The notes under the pieces were generated by a model that made no database searches, was not told the DNA's origin, and saw only the letters and a list, made by a program, of their open reading frames with translations. Source: Spelaeicoccus albus (GTDB taxonomy: Bacteria > Actinomycetota > Actinomycetes > Actinomycetales > Brevibacteriaceae). From it: a stretch of 64,000 bases of DNA. Location: positions 1,116,001 through 1,180,000 of the forward strand of contig NZ_JACBZP010000001.1 of NCBI RefSeq assembly GCF_013409065.1, read 5' to 3'. The translations under genes were made by a program, and so were the position numbers. Below, one piece after another: positions 54,615 through 58,141 of the stretch. The number at the start of each line of letters is the position of its first letter. Position 1 is the stretch's first letter.

Positions 54615-56180
54615 TTATTTGTTTCGTCGGCCCTCGCCCGACGTGAGCTTGAATCGACGAATTTTGCCGACGCTCGTTCGCGGTAGCTCGTCGATGAGCT
54701 GCCACTCGACAGGTCTGGCAGCCGAGGCGAGATTCCGCTCGGCCCAGGCCGCGAGGTCGGCAATCCGTGGCGGGTCGTCCGGATGGCGCGCCACGACGTA
54801 GGCAACGGGCACCTGGTCGCGCACATCGTCGGGGCGGGCAACAACCGCCACTTCAAGCACTCCGGGGGCGTCCGCAATTGCCGCCTCCACCTCGGTGAGG
54901 CTCACGTTTTCGCCGGAGACCTTGATGACGTCGTCAATGCGTCCGACGAACCGGTACGCGCCGTCCCGTCGAACCGTCACGAGGTCGCCGGTGGCGAACC
55001 AGGTGCGTCCGTCGGAGTCGGTGTGGAAGGCTCGCGCGGTGATCTCCGGTGCGTCGAGATACCCGGCGAACAGATCCTGGCCGGGGACGCCTTCCACGAG
55101 GAGCAGCCCGACCTCTCCCGGGTCGACGGGGTCGTAGGTCGCAGGGTCGACCACCGCGACAGTCCGATCAAGGATGGGAGTGCCGATGACGGTGGACGAC
55201 GGCGTCGTGCTGAGATCCGCCGTGACGATGGCGACAGTCTCGGTCATGCCGTACAGCTGCCGGGGTTCGGTGCCGATGATGCCGGCGAATTCGCGGAATT
55301 GCGCGGAAGACAGGTTCTGCGCGAACCAGACGTGCTCGAGGTGGAGCTCGGGGGCGTCGGACGGTCGGCGGGCCAGGATCATCCGAATCGGCGCGGCGAA
55401 CAAGCTGGCGTGCGTTGCTTCCAGCGCATCGGCTTGCCGACACCAGCGGGATGCCGAGAACGTCGGCGTCAGCGCGACTCCGGCGCCGACCGCAATGGCT
55501 GAGGCAAAGCAGTAATACTGTGCGTTCGCGTGGAACAGCGGCAAGGTGACAAGCCACCGGTGCTCCGGGCGCAGGCCGATGACCGCCGACATGGCACGAG
55601 CGACGTTCGCATAATTCGCCTGGGTCAACTCCACGCCTTTCGGGGCCGATGTCGTGCCCGACGTGAACATCACGGCAAGGCGATCGGTTTCGGCCGGCGA
55701 CACGTGCCGGCCGTCGTCGGTCGGCCCCGCGGACGACAGCAGTGGCGCCGACGGCCCGACGTCGTCCGCGGTCTCGGACAATTCGATGAGCGACTCGAGC
55801 CGCCCCCGCGCGCCGTCGCGGTACACGTCGCCGCGCGCAGCCGCATAGATGCCGATACGAGGCGACGTCCGCTCGATCTGTGACGCGATCTCGCGAGCCG
55901 CGGACGACGGGTCGACCGGTACGATCCACGCGCCGATTTTGGCTGCGGCAAGCCACAGTGCGATGAACGCCGGACAGTTCTTCAGCGCCAGATGGATTGA
56001 GCTGCCCGGCATCACGCCGGCTTCGAGCAAGCGGGCCGACACGCGTGCCACGATGTCGTCGAATTCGCCGTACGTCCACGTCTCGGGAGCGGTCTCACCG
56101 TCGCCGAACACCAGAAACTGTCGATCGCCGTGGTCGCGGACTGCGCGATGCCACACGGCGTCAAAGGTCTCGCTCGTCAT
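54615..56180 (-). CDS. AMP-dependent acyl/aryl-CoA ligase
   Basis: 521 residues, ANL superfamily. Motifs: phosphate loop MFTSGTTSAPKGVELTQ, YGMTETVAIVT (A5), WFATGDLVTVRRDGAYRFVGR (A7/A8), and the catalytic Lys in TSVGKIRRFKL near the C-terminus. It activates a carboxylic acid as acyl-AMP and passes it to CoA. The gene is divergent from the ammonia-lyase homologue, with only 31 bases between start codons, so the ligase may act on the unsaturated acid made by the lyase. A -10-like TACTAT lies four bases before the ATG, suggesting a leaderless transcript. Confidence 0.88.
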   Translation of the reverse strand: MTSETFDAVWHRAVRDHGDRQFLVFGDGETAPETWTYGEFDDIVARVSARLLEAGVMPGSSIHLALKNCPAFIALWLAAAKIGAWIVPVDPSSAAREIASQIERTSPRIGIYAAARGDVYRDGARGRLESLIELSETADDVGPSAPLLSSAGPTDDGRHVSPAETDRLAVMFTSGTTSAPKGVELTQANYANVARAMSAVIGLRPEHRWLVTLPLFHANAQYYCFASAIAVGAGVALTPTFSASRWCRQADALEATHASLFAAPIRMILARRPSDAPELHLEHVWFAQNLSSAQFREFAGIIGTEPRQLYGMTETVAIVTADLSTTPSSTVIGTPILDRTVAVVDPATYDPVDPGEVGLLLVEGVPGQDLFAGYLDAPEITARAFHTDSDGRTWFATGDLVTVRRDGAYRFVGRIDDVIKVSGENVSLTEVEAAIADAPGVLEVAVVARPDDVRDQVPVAYVVARHPDDPPRIADLAAWAERNLASAARPVEWQLIDELPRTSVGKIRRFKLTSGEGRRNK

Positions 56181-56211: not shown

Positions 56212-57678
56212 ATGCCATACGAATTGCGCACAACGCTGACCGGTAGCAGCCTCGACGCGTACGCTATCGCCGGCCACGCCGTGAATTCGGCAGTCGGCTT
56301 CGACATCGACGACGACGCGCGCCGGCGCGTGGCGGCATCCCGGGAAACGGCTGTGCGGGTCGCCGAGCGTCGCCCCGTCTACGGCCGGACGACCGGAGTC
56401 GGCGCCAATCGCTCGGTCGAGGTAGCCGCGGGCCGCGAGCAAGACCTCCGGCTGCTGAAATCGCACGCGACCGGGTCGGGCGACGAGTTGCCGCACGGCC
56501 AAGTGCGCGCCGCGATGATGGTCAGGTTGAATCAGCTGCTGGTCGGCGGCTCCGGCATGCATCCGGCAATCATCGACGCTCTTTCGCAGGCCCTGCACGA
56601 CGACGATCTGCCGCGGGTACGTGCGTTCGGTCCTATCGGTACGGGCGACCTCACCAGTTTCGCGGAAATAGGCCTCGGTTTGGCCGGGCTGGTACCCGTG
56701 GAAAGCGGGCGGTTGCGCGCGTATTGGCGGCCGCGGGCCGGTGATGCCCTCGCCTTCATGTCGACGAACGCCATGAGCGTTGCGGCCGGTTGCCTTGCCA
56801 CTGTCGCCGCGGAGCGATGGCACGACCATTGTCTGGCGATCGGCTGCCTCTCACTCGTCTCCGTGCGCGGAGCGGTCGAAGCTTTAGCGCCGGCCGTGCA
56901 GGCGGCGCGTCCGCATGCCGGCTCGGAAGAGACCGCAGCACGTTTGCGCATGCTGCTGAACGGGCATGCGCCGGCACCTGCGCGGATCCAGGATTCGTAC
57001 GGGTTTCGCGCCATGGCGCAGGTGCAAGGCGCAGTCCGTCATGCGCTCGACGACCAGCACGACGTCCTGAATATCGAAATGAACGCGGCAAGCGAGAATC
57101 CGCTCGTCGACGTCGCCGGCGACGACGTGTTCCACAATGGCAATTTCCATTCGCTTCCGATCGCGCTTGCCTTCGATTCGACGAAGTTGGCCGTTTCCAG
57201 TGCGGCACACCTGGCGTCGTGCCGGCTGACGGATATGTCCGAACCGGAGATGACGGGGCTCGAGCCGTTTCTTGCGGCGGGCCCGGCCGGAAGCAGCGGC
57301 ACCATGTTGCTGGAGTACAACGCCGCGGCAGCCCTGGCCCGGCTGCGCGCGTCCGCGAGTCCCGCGACGCTCGGGACGACCGTCGTATCCCGGGGAGCCG
57401 AAGACCACGCCGGCTTCGCCGCGCAAGCCGGCGACCAGCTGGACGAGTGCATCCGCGACGCGACGTTCGTGTCGGCATGTGAACTGCTCACGGCGATTCG
57501 CGCGCTGACGCAGGCCGGACGCCGGGTCGAAGCGGGGACGCCGCTGGGAGACTATTTTCAGCGCGCTCGGGATCTCGTCGACGCTGAAATGGCCGACCGG
57601 CCGCTGGGCGACGATCTTGCCGCGGTCGCGTCGTTCCTCAACGGGCCGACGGGGCTGCCGGACGCCTCCGTAGACTGA
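56212..57678 (+). CDS. Aromatic amino acid ammonia-lyase homologue with altered MIO motif
   Basis: 488 residues, HAL/PAL/TAL family. Conserved are the tyrosine loop VYGRTTGVGANRS, LKSHATGSGDELP, QDSYGFRAMAQVQG, SENPLV followed by NGNFHS, and RGAEDHAGFAAQAGD. The MIO cofactor normally forms from Ala-Ser-Gly in a GxxxASGDL context; here the place reads GPIGTGDLTSF, i.e. Gly-Thr-Gly with Thr144 in the serine position. Threonine is not known to me to form a normal MIO, so the enzyme may be inactive as an ammonia-lyase, form a variant cofactor, or do another reaction. Its context is a divergent acyl-CoA ligase and downstream YbaK. Length is slightly short for HAL (~510). Confidence 0.85.
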   Translation: MPYELRTTLTGSSLDAYAIAGHAVNSAVGFDIDDDARRRVAASRETAVRVAERRPVYGRTTGVGANRSVEVAAGREQDLRLLKSHATGSGDELPHGQVRAAMMVRLNQLLVGGSGMHPAIIDALSQALHDDDLPRVRAFGPIGTGDLTSFAEIGLGLAGLVPVESGRLRAYWRPRAGDALAFMSTNAMSVAAGCLATVAAERWHDHCLAIGCLSLVSVRGAVEALAPAVQAARPHAGSEETAARLRMLLNGHAPAPARIQDSYGFRAMAQVQGAVRHALDDQHDVLNIEMNAASENPLVDVAGDDVFHNGNFHSLPIALAFDSTKLAVSSAAHLASCRLTDMSEPEMTGLEPFLAAGPAGSSGTMLLEYNAAAALARLRASASPATLGTTVVSRGAEDHAGFAAQAGDQLDECIRDATFVSACELLTAIRALTQAGRRVEAGTPLGDYFQRARDLVDAEMADRPLGDDLAAVASFLNGPTGLPDASVD

Positions 57679-57682
57679 ACCA

Positions 57683-58141
57683 ATGGCAGGGATCGACGGC
57701 GCACAGGCTGACGCGCAGGCTCACGGACTGGCAGTCGAGTTTCGGCAGCGCCCGGACGCGAGCAGCCTCGAAGAAGCTGCGGCGCTCTTGGATATCGAAC
57801 CGCGCGAGATCGTCAAATCACTGATCGTGCGGAACAAGCATGATTACTTGTTTGCCTTGATCCCCGGTGATCGGCATATCGCGTGGCCCAAGCTCCGCGC
57901 GATCGTCGGCGCCAACAAATTGTCGATGCCTCCGGCCGACGAGGCGTTTGAAGCCACCGGATACGAACACGGCACCATCACGCCGATCGGCAGCTCCCGG
58001 GCATGGCCGATTTACGCCGATGAGCATATCGTGGGCCGGCGGATCGCGATGGGCGCCGGCGCCCACGGGTACAGCGCGTTCGTCGATGCCGATGCGCTCA
58101 TCGCCGCGTATGGAGCCGTGGTCGCCGACATCTCGGCCTAG
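57683..58141 (+). CDS. YbaK/EbsC-family aminoacyl-tRNA deacylase
   Basis: 152 residues, single YbaK/ProX domain. The catalytic Lys is in PREIVKSLIVRNKHDY, and the conserved GTITPIGSSRAWPIY loop and GAGAHGYSAFVDADAL C-terminal segment are present. Family members hydrolyse mischarged Cys- or Ala-tRNAPro in trans. It starts four bases after the lyase stop, so the two are probably co-transcribed; a link to the lyase substrate (an amino acid) is possible but unproved. Confidence 0.88.
   Translation: MAGIDGAQADAQAHGLAVEFRQRPDASSLEEAAALLDIEPREIVKSLIVRNKHDYLFALIPGDRHIAWPKLRAIVGANKLSMPPADEAFEATGYEHGTITPIGSSRAWPIYADEHIVGRRIAMGAGAHGYSAFVDADALIAAYGAVVADISA

Follow-up and report, generated by a model that had tools for sequence, protein, structure and literature searches.

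The question raised by this locus is what chemistry is left to a protein of the histidine ammonia-lyase (HAL) family in which the loop that would form the MIO cofactor has been altered. The window, the whole stretch of 64,000 nucleotides of Spelaeicoccus albus DNA that was analysed, carries an intact reading frame (56212–57678, +) for a protein of 488 amino acids with a PF00221 aromatic-lyase domain (327.9 bits, 1.3e-97, cut-off 27.3) and a confident AlphaFold model (pLDDT 89.6, pTM 0.90), described here as a short-loop, predicted MIO-less variant of the family. In all eight NCBIfam models matched, the protein scored below the model's own cut-off, as with hutH (TIGR01225), where 258.5 compares with a curated cut-off of 539.15. 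We consider it reasonably probable that it acts as a MIO-independent 1,2-eliminase with the HAL fold, namely a trimethylamine-lyase that most likely converts hercynine to urocanate.

An earlier, sequence-only reading of this DNA had reported Gly-Thr-Gly, with a threonine at position 144, in a lyase homologue. Codon-by-codon reading of positions 56626–56661 gives F139 G140 P141 I142 G143 T144 G145 D146 L147 T148 S149 F150, with Thr144 encoded by ACG (56641–56643, +), and the loop is thereby confirmed as genuine. The further statement that Thr144 stands at the serine position survives only as regards the threonine itself; a simple exchange of Ala-Ser-Gly for Gly-Thr-Gly does not hold, since the segment G140-P-I-G-T-G-D-L-T148 (56629–56655, +) replaces the MIO loop with one residue fewer, G-P-I-G-T-G-D-L counting eight residues against the nine of G-S-x-G-[AC]-S-G-D-L in MIO enzymes. 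The x-Ser-Gly triad (Ala-, Cys- or Thr-Ser-Gly) of the nine-residue loop, whose serine is found in all 14 canonical rows, is absent from the protein. One alignment sets Thr144 against a gap beside Ala/Cys-Ser and the other sets it against Ser, so that a threonine "at the serine position" hinges on where the gap is placed.

The five motifs that had been named as retained (VYGRTTG, QDSYGFR, SENPLV, NGNFH and RGAEDHAGF) are all present, but the claim that all main HAL/PAL regions are kept does not extend to the NGT motif, whose Asn in the MIO pocket is lost (STN) within A179-LAFMSTNA-M188 (56746–56775, +). A serine occupies this position in 115/115 clade rows, compared with Asn in 14/14 canonical rows. 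Elsewhere, alignment places the Tyr loop at V56-YGRTTGV-G64 (56377–56403, +) with Tyr57 retained, followed by Q260-DSYGF-R266 (56989–57009, +), H308-NGNF-H313 (57133–57150, +), M365-LL-E368 (57304–57315, +) and E397-D-H399 (57400–57408, +). Several residues agree between the clade and the canonical rows, namely Arg266 and Glu397 (115 of 115 each), His85 (113, two gaps), Tyr57 (112, three gaps), Phe312 (112) and Met365 (109). Others set the clade apart: His308 is found in 115/115 clade rows (canonical rows have Ser in 11/14 and His in 3/14), Glu368 in 114/115 (Gln in 14/14 canonical rows), and Glu295 in 115/115 (Asp in canonical rows).

These 115 rows comprise the window protein, 34 sequences from genome and plasmid searches and 80 from named genomes, and the sets of 34 and 80 may overlap; L076, L077, L083, L095 and L097 are missing as near-copies or badly started sequences, and the clade lyase of L127 is absent from both the tree and the 115 rows, the row taken for that locus being its divergent second lyase. 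The threonine is present in 115/115 clade rows and in 80/80 kept loci of named genomes, which places it beyond chance or sequencing error. A clade with GTGDLT, for which a search had been proposed, thus does exist. In the clade rows read, the short loop and the loss of the NGT Asn occur together, and the Asp following the triad is invariant. The earlier argument against simple decay and for a changed chemistry is therefore strengthened, as the whole clade retains the loop change. Judged from these alignments, the clade is a conserved group of actinobacterial HAL relatives with an altered cofactor-forming loop.

With a profile built from four members, 24 of 394 genomes in the class sample (own genome included) scored at least 385 bits, the best non-clade match seen being 297.5, and five more gave partial matches of 292–322 bits, making 29/394 in all; among these matches, the loop of the G075 copy (L097) reads unclearly. 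In the order sample the clade was found in 23/396 genomes, again with the own genome included, and in the phylum sample ten of 296 lay above a score gap (≥399 versus ≤348 bits), three of them, putative members by score, from outside the class. Scanning one genome per species with a single protein as query gave no match, and the same scan with a 21-row alignment yielded at least 520 stretches encoding some relative; the best 80 of these were read, and their titles name what we take, from the genera, to be actinobacteria.

The nearest precedent for such a loop is ergothionase. The solved ergothionase 6s7j is matched at 302 bits by a Sinorhizobium lyase (L150) whose loop reads GSVGQADM, and in the resulting alignment 6s7j reads SSIGEGDI at the loop (window GPIGTGDL) and LSIVSCNA at the former NGT motif (window STNA). 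Both proteins thus have an eight-residue, serine-free loop and have lost the NGT Asn. According to PMC13405746, which cites the structural work on ergothionase by Maurer et al. (2019), the enzyme lacks MIO. In an unrooted 55-row tree calculated without the loop and NGT columns, and in which 6s7j is represented only through L150, a branch with SH-aLRT support of 98.8 separates all 38 short-loop rows from the rest. The trees are quick ones with SH-aLRT as their only support measure (90 for the 14 MIO rows and 46 for three rows with a second loop type, GSxGYL); ten rows of the 55-row tree have an unusual letter make-up, L151 forms a long branch, and L076, L077, L083, L095, L097, L089, L096, L098 and L126 were left out. 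An earlier FastTree that kept the loop and NGT columns separated the canonical and GSxGYL rows from the rest at 0.993. That the short-loop lineage dispenses with the MIO cofactor is the better reading of these data, probably because its leaving group is trimethylamine, and by analogy the window gene product probably takes trimethylamine off a histidine-like betaine as ergothionase does. Against an ergothionase-like reading counts the pairwise score of the window protein, which is higher with the Thermoplasma HAL 7tqr (178 bits) than with ergothionase 6s7j (117 bits). Structural comparison of the AlphaFold model gave Z 43.2 for 6s7j (rmsd 2.2 over 475 residues, 24% identity), 43.2 for tyrosine aminomutase (TAM) and 43.1 for HAL, and the fold alone does not decide, the three being tied within 1 Z.

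Since the 98.8 branch leaves the GSxGYL lyases with the canonical rows, the three loop types require two changes in the tree. A stronger statement, that MIO was lost twice, was dropped in view of the unrooted tree, and the claim is limited to the number of changes. One GSxGYL lyase, with the loop GSVGYL, is found on a Klebsiella plasmid (NZ_CP092405.1; L039:5851-7383), where it is clustered with OpuC-type ABC genes, HutU, HutF, HutC and HutD; it recurs at ≥99% identity in 108 of 895 matched plasmid records, those listed in this band being Klebsiella. The lyase of a Rhizobium plasmid (L152) adjoins OpuAC-type ABC genes, and a GSLGYL lyase from a Brevibacterium-family genome (L038:8252-9799, -) adjoins a BCCT betaine/carnitine/choline transporter.

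Neighbouring genes were compared in 41 clade stretches, the window among them, and in 12 canonical HAL stretches as control, 11 of which come from genomes that also have a clade lyase; the best 80 of the at least 520 stretches formed a second set. "Near" refers to the fetched stretch, which mostly extended about 9 kb to either side and was sometimes shorter; we set the bit cut-offs for the markers ourselves. Many loci are from near relatives (many of them Streptomyces) and G310 is counted twice, so that the counts do not represent independent events. A gene for an OpuAC-type binding protein (PF04069) was found near 31/41 clade lyases compared with 0/12 canonical HAL controls, the ten stretches of the first set without it being L033, L071, L073, L076, L081, L084, L092, L094, L120 and the window; of the best 80 in the second set, 28 had it nearby. 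As for short-loop lyases of other kinds, L149 has an OpuAC-type gene in its vicinity, no such gene was found within about 5 kb of L148 and L151, and L150, the nearest to ergothionase, has neither transporter nor Hut markers within about 5 kb. One member of the OpuC-type family transports ergothioneine and, according to PMC9732360, has an affinity for hercynine that is about 10,000-fold lower. In the light of this preference, the transporter type indicates quaternary ammonium compounds and no single one of them.

HutU was found near 17/41 clade lyases and 6/12 canonical HAL controls, and its being as common beside canonical HALs counts against the reading preferred here. In the second set it lies near 26 of the best 80 lyases, and 23 of those 26 stretches lack a canonical HAL. 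Five HutUs from clade loci scored above the urocanase cut-off and below both thiourocanate models: those of L034 and L036 directly adjoin the clade lyase, that of L164 lies in a hut cluster, that of L161 is a partial reading, and that of L070 comes immediately after the canonical HAL in the same locus. By model they are urocanases, which points to urocanate as the product and hence to hercynine as the substrate. A role of HutU as thiourocanate hydratase was considered and set aside, the five having failed both models; no HutU is near the window gene. The clade lyase is the sole PF00221 match in two of seven genomes searched, whose completeness is unstated, and both have hut genes nearby. In Propionibacterium cyclohexanicum (G756) the order is M20, HutF, HutI, HutU, an opposite-strand ORF, the clade lyase and MFS, and in Actinomycetospora termitidis (G757) the hut genes lie within the clade-lyase stretch. 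A different set, consisting of genes for a LacI regulator, what we take to be an amidohydrolase-like protein and CDO_I (PF05995), is found near 13/41 clade lyases (L033, L070-L072, L081, L084, L089, L093, L094, L122, L124, L126 and L127); the one representative of the amidohydrolase-like neighbour that was scanned had no Pfam match at 1e-8. In three loci a strongly divergent PF00221 paralogue shares its stretch with the clade lyase: one lies at L093:12973-14442 (-; loop GSGAAGEI, QAPVS for QDPYS), and L124 and L127 have a similar second lyase.

Within this clade, the window gene can be placed in a smaller branch. Among the best 80 of the at least 520 stretches, its nearest relatives are from Arthrobacter sp. 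35W (57%), Saccharopolyspora shandongensis (52%) and Specibacter cremeus (50%), followed by Microbacterium mangrovi (49%), Propionibacterium cyclohexanicum (46%) and Brevibacterium sp. CCUG 69071 (42%), and together with these six it forms one set of seven rows in a 44-row tree (SH-aLRT 99). In 6/6 of these relatives the lyase is closely followed by an MFS gene, always of the same kind (>150 bits), which is also present in the stretches of six of the other 74 loci. No such gene lies near the window lyase, the best match being one of 68 bits about 20 kb away; a 43% relative of the carrier is encoded elsewhere in the host genome. This closest host relative (L260:5323-9073; G000:C1, ~3.34 Mb) adjoins two candidate oxidases, presumably resembling sarcosine/N-methyl amino acid oxidases.

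Neither an OpuAC transporter nor HutU was found in the window neighbourhood, and without the usual neighbours of the clade the functional claim rests on the clade. Upstream, on the opposite strand, is a divergent AMP-binding acyl-CoA ligase (54615–56180, -), for which the ATG at 56180 was taken in place of the ORF finder's start at 56306, leaving a gap of 31 bp to the lyase; crotonobetaine/carnitine-CoA ligase is among the NCBIfam models that it matches best (232 bits, cut-off 651). The next gene downstream encodes a tRNA-editing-domain protein of the YbaK/EbsC type (57683–58141, +), which was not found near the other clade lyases examined (the other 40 and the 80). The host genome (4.03 Mb) contains one other PF00221 match, a canonical HAL (GSLGCSGDL, 587.7 bits) whose stretch includes HutU and HutF, as well as seven OpuAC matches elsewhere. 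It has no match to CDO_I and none to PF10017 (EgtD-type). Synthesis of hercynine by the host itself was discarded on the latter ground, and hercynine would have to be imported.

In the mechanism proposed for the preferred reading, hercynine (histidine betaine) would be held as histidine is in HAL, with Arg266 binding the carboxylate, the Tyr57 loop acting as the base and His85 and Met365 near the ring, roles that we carry over from HAL by assumption. A proton would be removed at the beta carbon and trimethylamine lost, and no electrophile would be needed because trimethylamine is already a good leaving group; the products would be urocanate, for the Hut pathway, and trimethylamine. For the clade, support for hercynine as the substrate is fair; for the window gene itself it is weaker. 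No publication on a hercynine lyase was found among the open-access papers listed.

A MIO-free lyase of another betaine is possible though unlikely; its substrate would be ergothioneine itself or an aromatic betaine, the latter yielding an acrylate on which the adjacent CoA ligase would act. The loop type shared with ergothionase would suit this reading, as would the ~10,000-fold preference for ergothioneine reported in PMC9732360, the recurrence of CDO_I with LacI and amidohydrolase-like genes, and the divergent ligase starting 31 bp away. However, no match of ≥200 bits to this ligase was found in the other 40 or the 80 clade stretches, and the ligase was accordingly rejected as a conserved pathway partner in a lyase–ligase pair comparable to that of phenylpropanoid breakdown. 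The failure of the five HutUs in both thiourocanate models and the lack of CDO_I in the host also speak against another betaine, as does the retention of HAL-like His85 and Met365, 6s7j having no Met there when aligned via L150.

Release of ammonia from histidine by the same protein, as a MIO-independent HAL, is very unlikely. It would account for the HAL-like active-site residues and for the two genomes in which the clade lyase is the sole PF00221 match beside hut genes. Loss of MIO is, however, expected to cripple ammonia release, and the association with betaine-type transporters would be left unexplained. Moreover, 24/24 genomes of the class sample with a full-profile clade match have at least one further match at 1e-60 (part of them read), and most therefore seem not to need the clade lyase for histidine. 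Little credence is likewise given to the specific form of this proposal in which a clade HAL, devoid of any electrophilic cofactor, is the sole entry of histidine to the hut pathway in Propionibacterium cyclohexanicum and Actinomycetospora termitidis, with Thr144 and His308 sharing catalysis. A non-catalytic or decaying paralogue might be suspected from the second, canonical HAL of the host and from the separation of the window gene from its usual partner genes, but is made highly improbable by the intact frame, the residues conserved throughout the clade, the 57% identity to the Arthrobacter relative and the confident model. The idea of the sequence-only reading that threonine gives rise to an electrophile, taken here as MIO-like and within a normal ammonia-lyase, is the least probable of all in spite of the invariant Thr144 and following Asp, given the shortened loop and lost NGT Asn, the occurrence in the threonine column of Glu (in ergothionase 6s7j) or of Gln, Ala, Cys or Ser in other short-loop relatives, and the MIO-free state reported for ergothionase, of equal loop length, in PMC13405746.

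Taken together, actinobacterial proteins for which hutH is the best named model, far below its cut-off, probably do not act on histidine. Should they be hercynine lyases, histidine betaine, from which ergothioneine is made, could be converted through them to glutamate and trimethylamine. The comparison also suggests a rule for this fold. Two changes in the unrooted tree separate the MIO loop from the two loop types without MIO, and some members of each of these two types, though not all, adjoin carriers of quaternary ammonium compounds, perhaps because trimethylammonium can leave without help from the cofactor.

Among known systems, the ergothionase of Treponema denticola (6s7j/6s7q) resembles the window protein in its fold, its eight-residue loop and the lost NGT Asn (SCNA). 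It differs in having Glu at the position of the clade's Thr, shares 24% identity with the window protein and scores below some HALs, and the HutUs tested from clade loci are, by model, plain urocanases and not thiourocanate hydratases. HAL (HutH; Pseudomonas 1b8f, Thermoplasma 7tqr) has in common with the window protein the fold, the Tyr loop and the SHA, QDxY..R, NFH and EDH regions, whereas the window protein lacks Ala-Ser-Gly and the NGT Asn, has a loop one residue short and remains below the hutH cut-off. The GSxGYL lyases L039, L152 and L038 are likewise devoid of Ala-Ser-Gly, but their loop is three residues shorter than the canonical one, and the 98.8 branch sets them with the canonical rows, which makes their change separate from that of the short-loop group.
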